From a virus, in the IMG/VR virus record IMGVR_UViG_3300044726_000123, positions 1 to 44,748 of that record: 44,748 bases of DNA. One strand, given 5' to 3'. Below are positions 3,378 to 13,007 of the stretch, piece after piece. How positions within the stretch are numbered: the first letter of the stretch is position 1; each line of letters opens with the position of its first letter. Under the pieces are notes generated by a model. It did no database searches. It saw only the letters and a list, made by a program, of their open reading frames with translations, and was not told the origin of the DNA. Both the position numbers and the translations under genes were made by a program.

Positions 3378-3618
3378 GATTGGTTTCTCCTGAGCCGTTA
3401 GCTTCACCCTCATTGGATGTGACGGAGCTGAGGGCTCGCGGAGAGAAGTCCGGGTAGGCGCGATTGGCGTCGCGGCCGCCCGGCAGAATGCGAAGGAGGG
3501 AAAAGGATTTACGGCGCTGGATTTCGACCAGCGCCTCGGAGACGGATGGCGCGGAGACAACACCGAGATCGGGGTCGTTTACCAGCGCCGTGCCGTCTTG
3601 GGAGATGAAGAAGCTCAT
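3337..3618 (-). CDS. Unknown small protein following the Cro-like gene
   Basis: A 93-residue protein whose ATG (3616-3618) overlaps the stop of the Cro-like gene as ATGA, so translation is coupled. The N-terminal half (MSFFISQDGTALVNDP, then SVSEALVEIQRRKSFSLLRIL) has good third-position GC and looks like a compact alpha/beta domain. The C-terminal third is Ser/Asn/Gly-rich. It overlaps the next gene by 41 nt. No function can be assigned. Being second in the leftward early operon, it is repressed in the lysogen if the operator model is right. Confidence 0.6.
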   Translation of the reverse strand: MSFFISQDGTALVNDPDLGVVSAPSVSEALVEIQRRKSFSLLRILPGGRDANRAYPDFSPRALSSVTSNEGEANGSGETNHGNFVRKFGGACV

Positions 3619-3827
3619 GCGGCGCGCTCCGTGTGAGCGGCGACAAGGTCGTCATTGGTCAATTCAATGCCTTGGGAGGCAGCAAATCTTACAAGAGACG
3701 GCCAGTATTGAACTGGAATCGAGCGGCGACGACGCATCTCCGAAATCGCCGATGGCTTGGCGTCGATCCCGCGAGCAACCGCCGCGTTCCCCCCCAAGGC
3801 ATCCAGAATAGCTGAAATCGATTGCAT
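3615..3827 (-). CDS. Cro-like helix-turn-helix regulator (YdaS-type fold)
   Basis: A 70-residue protein starting at ATG 3827. The region ILDALGGNAAVARGI-DAKPSAISEMRRR (about residues 6-35) is a helix-turn-helix of the YdaS/Cro kind found in phage immunity regions. It is the first gene of the leftward early operon and diverges from the S24 repressor gene, the standard cI/cro arrangement. It probably binds the same operators at 3835-3880. The ATG lies only about 8 nt from the predicted -10 region and has no Shine-Dalgarno, so the message may be nearly leaderless. A TTG at 3845 could extend the protein by six residues but falls inside the operator. Confidence 0.75.
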   Translation of the reverse strand: MQSISAILDALGGNAAVARGIDAKPSAISEMRRRRSIPVQYWPSLVRFAASQGIELTNDDLVAAHTERAA

Positions 3828-3834
3828 GCGAGCG

Positions 3835-3857
3835 ATCTGACACAATCCATGTCAGCA
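3835..3857. promoter_or_regulatory. Repressor operator O1, overlapping the -10 of the leftward promoter
   Basis: The core is CTGACA-N7-TGTCAG (3837-3842 and 3850-3855), a perfect 6-bp inverted repeat with a 7-bp spacer. It matches the design of the perfect operator at 6435-6457. Its centre lies 23 bp from the centre of the neighbouring site O2, about two helical turns, which allows cooperative dimer binding. It covers the predicted leftward -10. Confidence 0.6.
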
Positions 3858-3863
3858 TGTCAA
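3835..3863 (-). promoter_or_regulatory. Leftward early promoter
   Basis: On the minus strand a perfect -35 TTGACA (3863 to 3858) is followed after 17 nt by TCAGAT (3840 to 3835), a weak -10. The -35 is part of operator O2 and the -10 part of O1, so a bound repressor would exclude RNA polymerase. It would drive the Cro-like gene and the recombination/replication operon. Confidence 0.5.
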
Positions 3864-3880
3864 CATGATTTATGTCGCCA
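3858..3880. promoter_or_regulatory. Repressor operator O2, overlapping the -35 of the leftward promoter
   Basis: Read on the minus strand this site matches the perfect 23-bp operator at 6435-6457 at 18 of 23 positions, including the shared block GACATAAATC. One arm, TGTCAACA (3858-3865), is identical to the consensus arm; the other is degenerate. It directly abuts O1. Confidence 0.6.
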
Positions 3881-3900
3881 CGGCCATTAAAGTGCGAGGC

Positions 3901-4659
3901 ATGGAGACAATGGGTGAGCGGCTGCGGGCTGCGCGAGAGCGCAAATTTTCATCGGCTTCCAAGGCTGCTGAAGCTATGGGCGTATCGGCGTCAACGTATA
4001 GGGCGCACGAAAACGGGCAGAATGATTTTGGCCCGGAAGAGGCTGACCTCTACGCCAAGAAATTCGGAACCAGCGCCGGATATCTATTAACCGGGAAAGG
4101 GCCATGGCACTCATCAAAGGGGAGCGAGGCTAAAGTCGTCGCGACGTATGATCCGGATGATGAAGCGGCCCCTTCGTATTTTCGAGACAATTGGAAGCCC
4201 AATGTAAAGGGCTCGATCCCTGAACTTGATGGCAAGCTGGGAGCCGGTCAGGGCGTCGCAGGAGATCTGATCGCCCTACCTATTGGCGGTCAACTCTATA
4301 CCGGCCATCGGGTGGTGGCCGAGTGGTTGTTACCAGAAACTTTCTTGCGCCATGAAGCGAAGGCCTCATCAAAAAGCTCAGTCGTAATGGAGGTCACAGG
4401 CGATTCCATGCTGCCGAGCTATCTGCCAGGTGACCGGGTCATCATCGATCTCGGGCAGAGCACTCTTTCGGTCGACTCCGTCTATGCAATTAGCGACGGG
4501 CAAAGCGAACCTCAAATCAAGAGGTTGCAGCGAGTGCCTTTCAGTAACCCCGTCCAGGTTCGCATTATTTCCGACAATACAGCTTTTCAGATGGACACAG
4601 TCGATCTCTCTCGACTCACGATTATCGGTCGCGTGTGCGGTCATATCGCTCGCCGTTAG
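3901..4659 (+). CDS. S24/LexA-type phage repressor (CI-like)
   Basis: A 252-residue repressor. Residues about 6-40 form an HTH_3-type DNA-binding domain (RLRAARERKF, then AAEAMGVSASTYRAHENG). The C-terminal half is an S24 peptidase fold: Ser169 in GDSM is the nucleophile and Lys207 in QIKRL the general base. Ala120-Gly121 in QGVAGD is a candidate self-cleavage site, so the protein should be inactivated by RecA-type SOS signalling. It lies opposite the Cro-like gene and the paired operators. I took ATG 3901; ATG 3910 with GGAG just upstream is equally possible. ATG 3865 is inside operator O2 and was rejected. It maintains lysogeny by repressing both early operons. Confidence 0.9.
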   Translation: METMGERLRAARERKFSSASKAAEAMGVSASTYRAHENGQNDFGPEEADLYAKKFGTSAGYLLTGKGPWHSSKGSEAKVVATYDPDDEAAPSYFRDNWKPNVKGSIPELDGKLGAGQGVAGDLIALPIGGQLYTGHRVVAEWLLPETFLRHEAKASSKSSVVMEVTGDSMLPSYLPGDRVIIDLGQSTLSVDSVYAISDGQSEPQIKRLQRVPFSNPVQVRIISDNTAFQMDTVDLSRLTIIGRVCGHIARR

Positions 4660-4680: not shown

Positions 4681-4986
4681 ATGATGGAGATCGCTGCTTT
4701 TTTTGCCCGGCTCGTCGGACACATGCTTGATCCCTTGATACCTATCATCGTTTGGACGGTGATCTTTGTCCTGGAGAAGTGGTCAATCTGGCTGCGCTTC
4801 GTGATCGCGCTGGCGGCAATGCTTGTTGTCGGGCTGGCCATCCAGCTGGTCAATCAAAACGGATTCCCGGCGGCGGACAAGACAGAGCGAATGGTTTTCG
4901 CATTGCTCGCGACCGCAGCTTGGTTCGGGATCATCGCCGGCTTTCGAAGATGGCGACGTCGCGGCTCCGGGCTGAATTCAGGATGA
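4681..4986 (+). CDS. Small inner-membrane protein in the immunity region
   Basis: A 101-residue hydrophobic protein beginning 21 nt after the repressor stop and probably read from the same transcript. Three membrane segments can be seen at about residues 17-32 (LDPLIPIIVWTVIFVL), 38-58 and 72-88, followed by a strongly basic cytoplasmic tail (RRWRRRG). There are no enzymatic motifs. Genes expressed with the repressor in a lysogen often alter the host envelope or exclude other phages. Superinfection exclusion is a reasonable guess but is inferred from location only. Confidence 0.65.
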   Translation: MMEIAAFFARLVGHMLDPLIPIIVWTVIFVLEKWSIWLRFVIALAAMLVVGLAIQLVNQNGFPAADKTERMVFALLATAAWFGIIAGFRRWRRRGSGLNSG

Positions 4987-5019
4987 CAGATCGCCGATCA
5001 GTCAACTCGGGGGCATAGA

Positions 5020-5562
5020 TTGACGCCTGATCTGGAAAACCAGATCCTCGATGCCTTGGAGCGAATAAGCCAGGCGCAAAAGGCGTTCGATGAAAACCCG
5101 AATTGGGTATCAATATCCGACAACCGTGGCAGCGAACGGCTCGAATTGACGGCAGCTCTGCAGATCAATGGAGTGCTTGGCGGTGGTGTGTCGCTTCGTA
5201 TCAACACACCTCGGAACAGTTGGGAAAAGGACGTTTACGGGCACATCGAGGTTCGCCGTCCTGACATGAAGCCGCACGCGCGCCTCGCTGCCATTGAATG
5301 GCGTCCTCGGCATGATCACACCAATCCGCCCTATGCTCCTTACGGTCTTCGGCTCAAAGTGCTAAGCGACCGATGGCATTCATTCGATGATAACCGGCAT
5401 CTTGGTATAGAGGCATTCACTCAGTCCAAGGCGAGCGTCGCCCGACCACTGCCACGTACAATTCTATCCTTCCGGGAGTATATTGAACTGGCGGCAGAGA
5501 TTTGGAATTTCCCTGAGGCCACGACTATCGAGACACCCGAATGGTCAAGACTGCTACTCTAG
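5020..5562 (+). CDS. Unknown protein, first gene of a two-gene accessory cassette
   Basis: A 180-residue soluble protein starting at TTG 5020 behind a GGGGG stretch. Residues about 30-110 are rich in alternating hydrophobic positions, suggesting a beta-rich fold, with GGGVSLRIN and YGHIEVRR. The C-terminal part is helical (FREYIELAAEIWNF). It overlaps the DUF1828-like gene by 22 nt, so the two are co-translated and probably act together. It may resemble the DUF6978 family, but I am not sure of that name. It sits in the lysogenically expressed part of the genome, where phages often carry defence or toxin-antitoxin genes, and its GC content is somewhat lower than that of the structural genes. 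Confidence 0.65.
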   Translation: MTPDLENQILDALERISQAQKAFDENPNWVSISDNRGSERLELTAALQINGVLGGGVSLRINTPRNSWEKDVYGHIEVRRPDMKPHARLAAIEWRPRHDHTNPPYAPYGLRLKVLSDRWHSFDDNRHLGIEAFTQSKASVARPLPRTILSFREYIELAAEIWNFPEATTIETPEWSRLLL

Positions 5563-6296
5563 TGAGTGACCTGGCCGCAGTTGCCGAGGACGTTGCTCGT
5601 GCTTTGACACATGTCAGCACGGAAGGCGATTCCGCGTTCGTGTCTACATCCGTGAAGTACGCCAACGGCACGTCTGCCGTGATCCGGATATCCCCCATTG
5701 GCGACGGCTATTTCGTCTCGGATGACGGCTATGCCGCACTAATCGCCGACATGATGGGCGCCCTGCCAACTTTCTCGAAGGTGGCTCCTACGGTGGCCAA
5801 GCGCTTCGGCGTGGAATTCGATCATCGCTCCTTCTTCGTCATGCATGTGCAGCGCGATCAACTCCCCGCCGCCGTATCAATTCTGGCGAATGTCTCGGCG
5901 GTGGCGGTAGAGCGGACGATCTGGAGCCTTGAGGCGATCAAGGTGAAGCGCTCGCGCATCTTGTTCGAAGAGCGCCTGCATGAGGCGTATGGCAAACGCG
6001 TGCGGTTTGGTGTTTCCGTGCGCGGCGCTACGCGTCCGTGGGATTTTGACGGCGTAGTTCTGCACGGCAATCAGGTGCAGGCAGTGTTCGAATTCGTCGC
6101 CCCGGCCTTCAATTCGGTCGCGACCGCGAACATGAAAATCGGTGACGTAAGAAGTATGACCGATGCGCCCTATACAGTTGCCGCTTTGGCGGACTACGAC
6201 CGCACCGAGTCTTCGCTACGCGCCGTTCTGTCCAATGTCGCCGACCGAGTAATTCCAGTCTCCACGCCGGCTGATGGTTACAAGCTGGCGGCCTAG
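5541..6296 (+). CDS. DUF1828-like protein, second gene of the accessory cassette
   Basis: A 251-residue protein starting at ATG 5541 inside the previous gene. The N-terminal part carries the motif pattern of DUF1828: a strand-rich segment ending in VIRISPIGDGYFVSDDGYAAL (about residues 47-67), where the ISDDG-like turn is typical. The C-terminal 120 residues contain a second domain (WDFDGVVLHGNQVQAVFEFVAP) with acidic residues and a beta-strand pattern that could be a degenerate nuclease fold; this is speculative. DUF1828 proteins are often encoded beside small partners in variable regions, and an antiphage or toxin-antitoxin role is possible. Function is not established. Confidence 0.65.
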   Translation: MVKTATLVSDLAAVAEDVARALTHVSTEGDSAFVSTSVKYANGTSAVIRISPIGDGYFVSDDGYAALIADMMGALPTFSKVAPTVAKRFGVEFDHRSFFVMHVQRDQLPAAVSILANVSAVAVERTIWSLEAIKVKRSRILFEERLHEAYGKRVRFGVSVRGATRPWDFDGVVLHGNQVQAVFEFVAPAFNSVATANMKIGDVRSMTDAPYTVAALADYDRTESSLRAVLSNVADRVIPVSTPADGYKLAA

Positions 6297-6361: not shown

Positions 6362-6434
6362 GGCCCTTTGCCTCGTCATCGCCGTAGGCGACCCTGCGGC
6401 GTTGTGCCCGATGTCAGTTTCCCAACATAATCTG

Positions 6435-6457
6435 TGTTGACATAAATCGTGTCAACA
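6435..6457 (+). promoter_or_regulatory. Perfect repressor operator O3 with embedded -35 of the rightward early promoter
   Basis: TGTTGACA (6435-6442), a 7-bp spacer and TGTCAACA (6450-6457) form a perfect 8-bp-arm palindrome. The left arm contains a consensus -35, TTGACA (6437-6442). Seventeen bases on, CATGGT (6460-6465) is a poor -10. The first rightward gene starts at 6498. The site matches O2 at 18 of 23 positions, so the same repressor should silence this promoter and everything down to the integrase. Confidence 0.7.
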
Positions 6458-6497
6458 TGCATGGTGCTCCTCATCAACGCATGAGGACTGTACCGCA

Positions 6498-6740
6498 ATG
6501 CACTTCGACCTTCCCTCTCAGAACCAGCCCGGCGACCGCGAGGAAGCGCTAGCCCGCGACGATTTCGCCGAGGAGCTGGCCCGCCACATCAGCCGCTATC
6601 CTGCCCGCCACATCGACCTGCGCAGCCGTGTCCGCACCTTGTCGTGCGTTTCGGAGGCCGAGCTGAATCGCCTGGTGCCCGCCGTCGACTACTTCCTCGG
6701 ACTCTACGACTGGCAGCGCACGAAGGGGCAGGTGGCATGA
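6498..6740 (+). CDS. Unknown small protein, first gene of the rightward early operon
   Basis: An 80-residue protein starting at ATG 6498 with GAGGA about 11 nt upstream, 40 nt after operator O3. It is mostly helical, with many Asp/Glu and Arg residues and a C-terminal LVPAVDYFLGLYDWQRTKG segment. No domain is recognised. Its stop overlaps the next ATG as ATGA. As first gene under O3 it is an early lytic product, possibly a host-takeover protein, but this is position-based only. Confidence 0.65.
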   Translation: MHFDLPSQNQPGDREEALARDDFAEELARHISRYPARHIDLRSRVRTLSCVSEAELNRLVPAVDYFLGLYDWQRTKGQVA

Positions 6741-7481: not shown

Positions 7482-7485
7482 TCCC

Positions 7486-8109
7486 ATGAGCGCCGAGCCG
7501 GCAGACTATATCCACAACATCGAATTCCAGCAGGCGATTGCCAAATGGCAGAACAGCGGCGGCACGTTCGGCGTGGCCTATGCCATGCTGTGCGCCGCCT
7601 ATGGACGGGGAGACGCGGGCCACCGTCAGGTTGCCGAAGAGGCCAGTATCGATGTGCCCGACGCCTCCCCACAAGATGCAGCGGAGGGCCAGAGGACCAT
7701 TGCCGACGAGGCCACCGAGTTTGTGCCCGATGCTGCACCCGAACGAAGCGGAGAGGGCCATTCGACGCATGCCGACAAGGCCATTCATCCTGTGCCCATC
7801 TCCGCTTCGGCCCGTGTCCTGCCCGGACACGCCAAGCACGGCATGGCGTCCATCAGCGCTGTGCAGGGCACCATGTCGAAGTCGCTGTTCGACCGCATCA
7901 AACTCCCGGACGGCCGCACGCTGCGCGAGGTCTGCTGGAGCGAATGCCCTAACCTCGCCACCCGCTACCGGCGCCTCTCGCGCATCCTCATGGCGCTATG
8001 GGCCCATGGAAAGCCGGTCGACCCGAACACGACGGTCGACAACCTCATCAACGATGCGGGGCTGAAGCAGATCGTGGATGCCGTGGAGAAATTCAATGAC
8101 ATACACTGA
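7486..8109 (+). CDS. Repeat-bearing protein with ADKA/VP motifs, unknown function
   Basis: A 207-residue protein starting at ATG 7486 behind AAGGA. Residues about 45-105 consist of three 23-residue units of the pattern G-(H/Q)-x3-A-(D/E)-x-A-x3-V-P. They are encoded by the DNA elements described at 7618-7797. After the repeats a different domain follows (SISAVQGTMSKSLFDRIKLPDGRTLREV, then helical to residue 207), which I cannot name. The gene overlaps the next repeat-bearing gene by 14 nt. Outside the repeats the two proteins are not alike, so the repeat has moved between unrelated contexts or been selected as DNA. Confidence 0.7.
   Translation: MSAEPADYIHNIEFQQAIAKWQNSGGTFGVAYAMLCAAYGRGDAGHRQVAEEASIDVPDASPQDAAEGQRTIADEATEFVPDAAPERSGEGHSTHADKAIHPVPISASARVLPGHAKHGMASISAVQGTMSKSLFDRIKLPDGRTLREVCWSECPNLATRYRRLSRILMALWAHGKPVDPNTTVDNLINDAGLKQIVDAVEKFNDIH
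7618..7797 (+). repeat. GGCCA-N9-TGCC element array A (6 copies in 3 units of 69 bp)
   Basis: GGCCA boxes start at 7618, 7641, 7687, 7710, 7756 and 7779, each followed after exactly 9 bases by TGCC. Within a unit the two elements are 23 bp apart, and units repeat every 69 bp (three times 23). All six copies are exact. Each element is also an imperfect inverted repeat (GGC-A against T-GCC), so hairpins are possible in single-stranded DNA or RNA. Confidence 0.85.
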
Positions 8110-9505
8110 TACGAATGGAGCGAAGGGCCGTCACCCCACTGCCGTCGAGGCCAGTCGACGAGTGCCCGACGCTCCACCCAATGACGGGGAGGGCCAAATC
8201 GCAGCTGCCGACAAGGCCAAGTTCGGGGTGCCCGACCCGTCGCCCAGCAACAGCAGAGCGGGCCATTCACGGAATGCCGACAAGGCCACTGCGGGAGTGC
8301 CCGTCTCTGCTGACCCGAACGATGGCGGAGATGGCCTCGGTCCGTCTGCCGACAAGGCCAAGCAACGTGTGCCCTCCTCGCCATCACCAAACAGTAGAGC
8401 GGGCCAAAGGCATGGTGCTGACAAGGCTAAAGGAGCGCTGCCCGTCTCTGCTGTGCTTGCCAAGCTTTACGAGCTGCAGGTCCGCCGCAAGTTCTACATC
8501 TCTGTCGTCAACAAGCAGACCAACGCCGCCAAGGCGCTTGTCCGCCGCGCGCTCGGTTGGCGCTACGACAGCGATGAAGGCTCCCGCACAAAGATGAACG
8601 GCAAGGCCGCGCGCATCGTCGCCGCGGCGATCGCCGGCAAGCCGCAGCGCCAAGAAGACGAGATCGCCTTCGCCTCGCTCTGGGACGACCTCCTGGTGGT
8701 CGCCGGGTCCATTGAGCCCTGCGCTGAGGCGCGGCATGACATCGAGCTGGCCATGGAGCGGGCCGTTCGCGGCCTGCCTGTCTACGCCTGGGCGAAAGAA
8801 GTGAAAGGACTCGGCGAAAGAGGCCTCGCCGTCATCCTGGCGGAAGCCGGCGATCTGTCTGGCTATCCGAAGAAGGGCCACCTGTGGAAGCGGCTCGGCC
8901 TCGCTCCCTTCAAGGGCAAAGCCTGTTCGACCTGGCGGCGCGAGGGCGGCCTGTCGGCCGCCGAGTGGGTCGAGGCCGGCTATTCGGCGCCCCGCCTTGC
9001 CCAGATATTCGCTGTCATCTCGAAGCCGCTCCTACAGGCGCAGCTCGTCAGCAAGGAGAAGTCCAGCACGAAGCACGGGCAGGCCAAAGGTCCGTATGGC
9101 GCGATCTACGTGCGTCGCCGCGAGCATCTGGACGAAGCGCACCCCGACTGGACGCCGAAGCACTGCCAGATGGATGCGCTAAGGGTGATGACGCAGATCC
9201 TGCTGCGCGACCTGCTGCGCGAATGGAAAGCAACAGAGGACCATCCCGGCGTTGCCAACGAGGCCAGAGTGGAAGTGTCCTCTGCTAAACGCCGGGAGGC
9301 CATCCCTGCCGTGCCGACAAAGGCTAGAGCGTGGTTGCCTCCCGGCGAGACGGACGGGCGGACGGCTATTCGGCCCGTGTCTGAAAGGACCATTCGGAGG
9401 TTGCCGTCTGCCCGCGCCGTCGAGAAGGCCAGCAATGTCGTGCCAGAAATGGCCAATCAAGCCTTGCCTTCCGACGGCGCTGACTTGCACGAAGGCGTGG
9501 GATGA
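8096..9505 (+). CDS. Helix-hairpin-helix protein with IS110-transposase-like C-terminal domain, flanked by repeats
   Basis: A 469-residue protein starting at ATG 8096 (GGAGAA upstream). Residues about 10-115 and 380-458 consist of repeat peptides (ADKA, VP and LP motifs) encoded by arrays B and C. The central domain (about 118-378) is basic. At 234-272 it contains VKGLGERGLAVILAEAGDLSG followed by LWKRLGLAPF, which closely resembles the helix-hairpin-helix of the IS110/IS116/IS902 transposase C-terminal domain (PF02371). The N-terminal DEDD catalytic domain of IS110 enzymes is not seen, and no transposon ends flank it, so it is not an insertion sequence. It probably binds DNA. Recognition of the surrounding arrays is a testable guess. 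Confidence 0.75.
   Translation: MTYTDTNGAKGRHPTAVEASRRVPDAPPNDGEGQIAAADKAKFGVPDPSPSNSRAGHSRNADKATAGVPVSADPNDGGDGLGPSADKAKQRVPSSPSPNSRAGQRHGADKAKGALPVSAVLAKLYELQVRRKFYISVVNKQTNAAKALVRRALGWRYDSDEGSRTKMNGKAARIVAAAIAGKPQRQEDEIAFASLWDDLLVVAGSIEPCAEARHDIELAMERAVRGLPVYAWAKEVKGLGERGLAVILAEAGDLSGYPKKGHLWKRLGLAPFKGKACSTWRREGGLSAAEWVEAGYSAPRLAQIFAVISKPLLQAQLVSKEKSSTKHGQAKGPYGAIYVRRREHLDEAHPDWTPKHCQMDALRVMTQILLRDLLREWKATEDHPGVANEARVEVSSAKRREAIPAVPTKARAWLPPGETDGRTAIRPVSERTIRRLPSARAVEKASNVVPEMANQALPSDGADLHEGVG
8126..8443 (+). repeat. GGCCA-N9-TGCC element array B (10 copies in 5 units)
   Basis: Boxes start at 8126, 8149, 8192, 8215, 8261, 8284, 8333, 8356, 8402 and 8425. Every one has the 9-base spacer to TGCC or TGCT. 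Units are 66, 69, 72 and 69 bp apart, always in whole codons. Four of the ten copies carry a single-base change in a box (8126, 8333, 8402 and 8425). The array encodes the N-terminal repeat region of the helix-hairpin-helix protein. Confidence 0.85.
9239..9468 (+). repeat. GGCCA-N9-TGCC element array C (8 degenerate copies)
   Basis: Elements begin at 9239, 9262, 9298, 9322, 9364, 9388, 9427 and 9451, with spacer 9 in all. Box sequences vary more here (GACCA, GGCTA, TGTC), but the pair at 9427 and 9451 is exact. From 9298 on, pairs are spaced 24 rather than 23 bp and the first element of each pair is read in the other frame, giving A-x3-V-P peptides twice instead of G-H-x3-A then A-x3-V-P. Confidence 0.75.
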
Positions 9506-11749: not shown

Positions 11750-12174
11750 TGAGCCGCGCGCTGGCCCCTCTGACGCTTGACCAAGCAGCCGAAGCCTTGG
11801 GGATAACTGTGGAGGATGCTGCAAATCCAGCCCGCCACGTCCGCGATCTCATCCGCCGGCACGGCATACCCTTTACGCGGTGCGGCCGCACGGTAAAGCT
11901 TCGTGCCGATCAGCTTGCGGCTCTAGCCGAGAGAATGGTTCAATGCCCCTCAAACTCTGGCAGCACGACAACGGCTTCTGGTACGTCACCGGAACCGTCA
12001 CCGCCTGGAGGAATGGACAACCTCATTCAAGGGAGGTTCGACGCTCTACCCGGACCCGCGACGAAGCCCAGGCAGACGGCATCCGTCGTCAGATTGACAA
12101 CGCGGAAGCCGAGCAAAACATCACCGGTCGTGAACCCGTTCTCACGTTCCGCCAAGCGGCAGCGAGATACGTAA
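11749..12174 (+). CDS. Excisionase-like HTH protein with a long overlap into int
   Basis: Residues 8-64 form a MerR/Xis-type winged helix-turn-helix: LTLDQAAEALGI, then HVRDLIRRHGIPFTRCGRTVKLRADQLAALAERM. The position directly upstream of the integrase fits a recombination directionality factor. The frame stays open for 231 nt inside the integrase gene, and that C-terminal half (Ser/Thr/Pro-rich, no fold visible) looks like a shadow of the integrase frame. Either the true protein is short and a frameshift has removed its stop near 11945, or the overlap is real. Confidence 0.65.
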   Translation: MSRALAPLTLDQAAEALGITVEDAANPARHVRDLIRRHGIPFTRCGRTVKLRADQLAALAERMVQCPSNSGSTTTASGTSPEPSPPGGMDNLIQGRFDALPGPATKPRQTASVVRLTTRKPSKTSPVVNPFSRSAKRQRDT

Positions 12175-13007
12175 AGAACGGCGGCGAGGAACGCTACATC
12201 GAAGCGACGGTGAGGCGGCTCGGCCGGCTTCGCATCAACGAAATCACCCAACAGCTATTGGACGATGCGGCGCGGGCCCACTATCCGATCGCCGCCGACT
12301 CCACGATCCGCCGCTCGTTTCACGGGCCAGTCATCGCCGTCCTGCGCGCCAACGGCATCAAGGAGTTGTTCAGCCGGCCGCCCGACGGCGAGAAGCGCAC
12401 CATCTTCTTCCGGCCCGAGCAGGCCGACAGGACGCTGAAGCAGATCGGTATCAGCCGCTATCCCAACCCATGGGCCGGCGCATTCGCTACCTTTCTCTTC
12501 GGGCAAGGAAGCCGCGTCAGCGAGACGCTGGCAATCGACGGGCGCGACGACATCTCGCTCGAGCACCGCTATGCCATCCTGCGCGACACCAAGAACGGCA
12601 AGGAGCGGATGGTCACGCTTTGCCCCCGCACGATCGCCGCGGTGTCGACTATCCCGAATCTCGGCCGTAAGGGACCGCTGTTCCTTCGCTATGACGGCAG
12701 GCCTTACGATGCCAGGAACGGCAACGGCTACCAGTTTTCCTTCTGGAAGCGCGCCGTCACGGCAGTCGAGCTCGATCCGCACGACTTCACCCCGCACACC
12801 GCCCGGCATTCGTGGGCGACATGGTTCTACAGCCAAACGAAGGACGTGGTTCGGCTCAAGGCCGAAGGCGGCTGGGACAGTTCGGAATGGGAGAGATATG
12901 TGAAGCTTGCAGCGCCAGGATTAGGCCATGCCGCGATGCAATATGGCTTCAGCTTTTCTGAAATTCCGCAAAGTGGTGCTTTGTCCACAGCGGCTAATAC
13001 AGCATAA
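11943..13007 (+). CDS. int: Tyrosine-family phage integrase
   Basis: A 354-residue site-specific recombinase starting at ATG 11943. The catalytic residues are in place: Arg191 (GQGSRVSET), a Lys in the beta-hairpin (Lys217 or Lys220, DTKNGKERM), His285 and Arg288 (PHTARHSW), Trp311 and the nucleophile Tyr319 (SEWERYVK). The N-terminal 60 residues carry an Arg-rich AP2-like or arm-binding segment; residues 65-150 are the core-binding domain. The gene ends 46 nt before a serine-tRNA fragment that must be attP. As the last gene of the O3-controlled operon it would be repressed in the lysogen and induced together with the excisionase-like gene. Confidence 0.92.
   Translation: MPLKLWQHDNGFWYVTGTVTAWRNGQPHSREVRRSTRTRDEAQADGIRRQIDNAEAEQNITGREPVLTFRQAAARYVKNGGEERYIEATVRRLGRLRINEITQQLLDDAARAHYPIAADSTIRRSFHGPVIAVLRANGIKELFSRPPDGEKRTIFFRPEQADRTLKQIGISRYPNPWAGAFATFLFGQGSRVSETLAIDGRDDISLEHRYAILRDTKNGKERMVTLCPRTIAAVSTIPNLGRKGPLFLRYDGRPYDARNGNGYQFSFWKRAVTAVELDPHDFTPHTARHSWATWFYSQTKDVVRLKAEGGWDSSEWERYVKLAAPGLGHAAMQYGFSFSEIPQSGALSTAANTA

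Follow-up and report, generated by a model that had tools for sequence, protein, structure and literature searches.

What role do the genes lodged between the repressor and the early operon of this virus play? In the window (the whole 44,748-nt stretch of viral record IMGVR_UViG_3300044726_000123), three open reading frames follow an S24/HTH repressor on the plus strand. The initial annotation read them as a lysogenic-conversion or defence cassette composed of a membrane protein, a protein of no recognised family and a DUF1828-like protein. All three frames are present, encoding 101, 180 and 251 aa, and the last two, here called X and Y, overlap as had been described. The features of the region are as follows.

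3615–3845, minus strand: divergent Cro/YdaS-like HTH gene, from the open reading frame list, with weak Pfam matches to YdaS_toxin and P22_Cro
3838–3881, no strand assigned: operator-like region 5' of the repressor (TGTCAGCATGTCAACATGATTTATGTC), inverted-repeat partner of 6434–6460
3865–4659, plus strand: CI-like S24/HTH repressor (Pfam Peptidase_S24, 2.8e-13; PHROG transcriptional repressor, 4.9e-37)
4681–4986, plus strand: predicted membrane protein, 101 aa, from open reading frame and hydropathy; accessory, not found in other loci
5020–5562, plus strand: X, 180 aa, TTG start; probable remote DUF6978/PDC-M24A-like protein
5541–5562, plus strand: X/Y overlap, 22 nt, kept at 22–25 nt in four other records
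5541–6296, plus strand: Y, 251 aa, PDC-M24B-like; remotely related to DUF1828 in its N-terminal part (SDDG motif) and to DUF1829 in its C-terminal part
6425–6460, no strand assigned: second operator-like region, 5' of the early operon, with arms TGTTGACA(N7)TGTCAACA at 6435–6457
6498–6740, plus strand: first gene of the next (early) operon, an open reading frame

The genes are closely packed, with 21 nt between the repressor and the membrane-protein gene and 33 nt between the latter and X. For the repressor, the true start is probably the ATG at 3901 or 3910, and for the Cro/YdaS-like gene the ATG at 3827 is a more likely start than the TTG at 3845. Elsewhere in the window, a minus-strand AAA_24 ATPase gene (1536–2351) and a RusA resolvase gene (2332–2856) form a leftward recombination operon (1536–2856). 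Two overlapping frames at 7482–9505 contain degenerate repeats (ADKAK..VP....); an IS110-like Transposase_20 segment in them falls just short of the Pfam cutoff (E 0.0011). A tyrosine integrase is encoded on the plus strand at 11880–13007.

Composition had been taken to set the pair apart from the rest of the genome. X (54.1% G+C) and Y (59.0%) do fall below the window mean of 62.9%, but so do the repressor (54.6%) and the cro-like gene (57.6%); the low G+C is therefore a property of the immunity region and not special to the pair. On the same ground, composition is rejected as evidence of a recent import.

The X-Y pair in other prophages

Scans of viral contigs and plasmids recover the pair in four further prophage records (L002, L003/L008, L006 and L007), several of them unrelated. 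The nearest annotated relative belongs to Pseudochrobactrum (Hyphomicrobiales), where L002 is a plasmid-borne prophage. Adjacent and co-directional genes in the order X then Y are thus seen in five records including the window, with overlaps of 22 nt (window, L003/L008, L006, L007) or 25 nt (L002). Among the relatives, identity to the window proteins is 42–61% for Y and 36–48% for X. At the upper end stands L009, whose Y (92–847, 61% identical) is so close to the contig end that X is not visible; this Y has SDAG where all the others have the SDDG motif.

Differences from the window, given as fractions at codon positions 1/2/3, are 0.31/0.20/0.67 for Y against L009 and 0.43/0.32/0.61 for X against L002. 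They peak at third positions, so both frames are under protein-level constraint; this pattern and the preserved overlap show that X and Y are genuine genes. The annotated phage collection contains no copy of the pair, and this branch is therefore rare or under-sampled; scans of genome collections for Y also gave no match.

The membrane protein has a different distribution. Its hydropathy peaks, near residues 11–38, 33–60 and 70–89, are consistent with about three membrane segments and so agree with the initial annotation, as judged from the window sequence alone. Conserved membership in the cassette is not supported for it: no homologue was found in the searches, and the gene is missing from the other X-Y loci. 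The membrane protein is an optional extra to the pair and, being absent from those loci, cannot be its general effector.

Linkage to the repressor and operator-like repeats

At every locus where a repressor is visible, X and Y are co-directional with it. In L003, X begins 17 nt past an S24 repressor, and in L007 it follows an HTH gene. In L002 it follows an S24 peptidase gene, with an annotated gene on the opposite strand between repressor and X. The start of X in L006 shares 4 nt with a partial frame 5' of it; Pfam gave no match to this frame, which by eye resembles the last part of an S24 repressor.

The pair is also flanked by operator-like repeats. In the window, 3855–3881 and 6434–6460 form a 27-nt inverted repeat with 81% complementarity, and positions 6435–6457 contain perfect 8-bp arms (TGTTGACA-N7-TGTCAACA), for which 100 shuffles give a chance expectation of 0 matches. 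Local alignment of the upstream against the downstream flank scores 17 in the window, in inverted orientation and by a narrow margin over the maximum of 16 in 60 shuffles. The corresponding scores are 27 against 21 in L002 and 25 against 14–15 in L007, and the same alignment found no such repeat around the L003 pair. The repeats differ in sequence among the window, L002 and L007. L002 and L007 share a further feature: past Y, and before the second operator region is reached, there is a hairpin with T after it (a palindrome in L007).

Because the pair lies between operator-like repeats in three unrelated phages, it probably belongs to the immunity operon. Its position in the repressor/immunity region is well supported, and the layout suggests that X and Y would be transcribed together with the repressor. 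The region from the repressor to N is a recognised moron site for accessory loci such as rexAB (PMC7067206).

Remote kinship of Y with DUF1828/DUF1829

For Y, the Pfam (even at E 10), PADLOC, PHROG and NCBIfam models return no match. The gathering scores of DUF1828 and DUF1829 (PF08861/PF08862) are not reached, and the PADLOC M24B model misses Y and five relatives alike. To what extent, then, is Y DUF1828-like, as had been proposed? A DUF1828-like consensus served as bait and retrieved 18 phage records, several of them annotated as DUF1828. The profile comparison used 17 real DUF1828 sequences only, and real members then found the plasmid copies. Aligned with hhalign, Y and the 17 DUF1828 proteins score 32.0 (P 6.5e-4) over 217 columns, colinear through DUF1828 and DUF1829; none of 200 column shuffles scores as high (maximum 22.9), and the reversed profile gives 11.8. 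In an earlier comparison with fewer sequences, P was 0.02 for both matched pairs and 0.13–0.17 for the mismatched ones.

The AlphaFold model of Y, built from an alignment in which four sequences could be used, has a mean pLDDT of 52 and is confident only in part of the N-terminal half. Foldseek searches of BFVD nevertheless match it to the DUF1828 protein of Siphoviridae ctRg81 (E 2.9e-6, prob 1.00) and to a 135-residue viral protein (TM 0.75 on the target); sequence and fold searches of the PDB gave nothing significant. Structure prediction had been suggested for the C-terminus; the C-terminal half is too weakly modelled to read, including for a degenerate nuclease fold that was considered there.

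HMMER models of DUF1828 and DUF6978 score X and Y no better than shuffles, and the homology of Y therefore rests on the profile-profile and fold comparisons. Together these make it well supported that Y is a remote DUF1828/DUF1829 protein, though one that falls below every membership threshold: the initial assignment stands at the remote level, but not at that of Pfam membership. No DUF1828 gene turned up in a selection of E. coli K-12 prophage regions, examined after the family search gave a signal in a control E. coli genome.

X is a probable DUF6978 relative

X likewise has no match among the Pfam, PADLOC, PHROG and NCBIfam models, and the PADLOC M24A model recognises neither X nor four relatives. 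Its conserved residues are R88, E93, W94, H100, N102, R118, W119 and H120; the structural model (mean pLDDT 47) is too poor for a fold search. Against DUF6978 (PF22398), X scores 21.6, with none of 150 shuffles as high (maximum 20.2), on two short aligned motifs only (HxNP and A-PLP). The mismatched pairings, X with DUF1828 and Y with DUF6978, score within their shuffles. By eye, the invariant R77, H85 and N87 of DUF6978 correspond to the invariant R88, H100 and N102 of X, and the R...HxNP...RWH core of X is comparable with R...HxNPDG...HxH in DUF6978. The motif match and the shared gene order make X a probable relative of DUF6978, a supported but weak assignment. Pfam detects no TumE domain in X; one of 10 DUF6978 members (Humcor1 DUF6978) gives a TumE match, under the cutoff (E 0.0028).

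A related candidate defence pair

The gene directly 5' of DUF1828 encodes DUF6978 in all 10 sequences tested, nine from phages or plasmids of bacteria and one from an archaeal virus, and these neighbours correspond to PADLOC PDC-M24A and PDC-M24B. At other DUF1828 loci the upstream DUF6978 is missing, unannotated or replaced. In phages of Staphylococcus, Streptococcus and Lactobacillus, DUF6978 and DUF1828 follow the repressor and precede the integrase; one Lactobacillus prophage with the pair is Lj965. The conjugative IncP plasmid pRSB223 (L027, 2031–3232) carries the pair with a 4-nt overlap and no phage repressor beside it. In two staphylococcal plasmid records (L029, 1217–2250; L030, 1216–2250), DUF1828 again precedes an integrase and its upstream neighbour is a 78-aa protein other than DUF6978, a possible case of partner swapping.

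PDCs are candidates obtained through guilt-by-embedding, most of them untested (PMC12988326), and the literature searched contains no paper on PDC-M24 and no published test of it. The remark that X and Y have no described role must accordingly be qualified: PADLOC lists their DUF6978/DUF1828 relatives as a candidate for defence, although a published test of those relatives was not found.

Possible functions of the pair

Why would a phage place these two genes behind its repressor? Our preferred reading, to which we give about an even chance of being correct, is that X and Y together serve in defence as accessory ("moron") genes of the repressor operon, and that the pair is a far-diverged relative of PDC-M24. 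In the lysogen, the repressor would hold the operator-like sites at both ends and keep the lytic operons silent, while its transcript would extend across the membrane-protein gene and cover X and Y, with the 22-nt overlap coupling translation of Y to that of X. When another phage infects, the pair would block superinfection, most likely by arresting the infected cell (abortive infection). X would be the likelier effector, a toxin role suggested by its motif and by the one marginal TumE match in its family, and Y may be the partner, a sensor or antitoxin that restrains or triggers X. The defence function itself is suggested by position, by the link to PDC-M24 and by spread over phages and plasmids. 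A lysogenic-conversion or defence cassette, as first proposed, remains the reading with the best support, given the co-direction with the repressor, the operator-like flanks in three phages and the PDC-M24 kinship, but without the membrane protein as a conserved member.

A bolder and more tentative proposal is that X and Y form a distinct two-protein immunity system of Gram-negative temperate phages, carried as rex-like cargo of the repressor operon, with a new effector chemistry and a deep common ancestry with the DUF6978/DUF1828 pairs found in archaeal viruses and in those of Gram-positive bacteria. If true, one ancient lysogeny-linked immunity pair would span bacteria and archaea.

Alternatively, X could be a growth-arresting toxin and Y its antitoxin, a toxin-antitoxin module that maintains lysogeny by punishing prophage loss, with defence a mere by-product. 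The conserved overlapping bicistron would fit this arrangement, as would the overlapping genes of the related pair on pRSB223 and the weak TumE match in X-like DUF6978, given that TumE-TumA is a validated translation-targeting toxin-antitoxin system (PMC10584680). However, no DNA-binding antitoxin domain is recognised in Y, which is also the larger of the two proteins, the TumE similarity is marginal, and the 78-aa neighbour of DUF1828 in the two staphylococcal plasmid records would be odd for a strict antitoxin; we consider this alternative rather unlikely. Less probable still is a role confined to the phage's own lysis-lysogeny decision, with the pair acting as anti-repressor or repressor accessory and contributing nothing to host defence. 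Constant linkage to a repressor and a location between operator regions are what such a role would predict, but the repressors beside the pair are not of one kind (S24 or HTH-only) and the operators vary in sequence, as expected of independent cargo, and the related pair occurs on plasmids with no adjoining repressor. Could the three genes instead be a counterpart of lambda RexAB, the membrane protein acting as effector in the place of RexB and X/Y as sensor in that of RexA? The pair sits at the same place in the immunity region as rexA-rexB, a small membrane protein is present, and a RexAB-type system of P. putida has a membrane protein without detectable RexB homology (PMC12894663). None of the other X-Y loci, however, has the membrane gene, and neither X nor Y has detectable sequence similarity to RexA or RexB, on which ground Rex homology of the pair is rejected; a functional counterpart appears very improbable.

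Comparison with known systems

The likeness to lambda RexAB is one of setting. In lambda the order is OR, cI, rexA, rexB, OL: the two accessory genes run in the direction of the repressor gene and lie between its operators. Cargo of the repressor operon placed between operator-like sequences is likewise found in the window, L002 and L007. The difference lies in the proteins, X and Y being unlike RexA and RexB and having no predicted membrane partner at the other loci. TumE is a translation-inhibiting toxin for which RNase activity is proposed and unproven (PMC10584680). TumE-TumA resembles X-Y in being bicistronic and in the marginal TumE match of one member of the X-like DUF6978 family; it differs in that X itself has no TumE match and Y is assigned to no known kind of antitoxin, RelB-type or other.

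PDC-M24 shares two adjacent co-directional genes, a small protein first and a second of roughly 250 aa, a place behind the repressor in temperate phages, and a second protein related to Y by profile and fold. It differs in that X and Y both fail its HMMs, that X has 180 aa against about 140–155, that X-Y hosts include alphaproteobacteria, and that X-Y lies between operators beside the early operon instead of between repressor and integrase. HMM-based defence finders at present overlook the X-Y branch. What is known, then, is a candidate prophage defence pair, and what is new is a strongly diverged branch missed by HMMs, together with its rex-like setting in three phages. A previously unannotated pair of Gram-negative prophages is now tied to the widespread candidate defence system PDC-M24, and offers a compact, testable locus for how a prophage may guard its host from the position of lambda rex.
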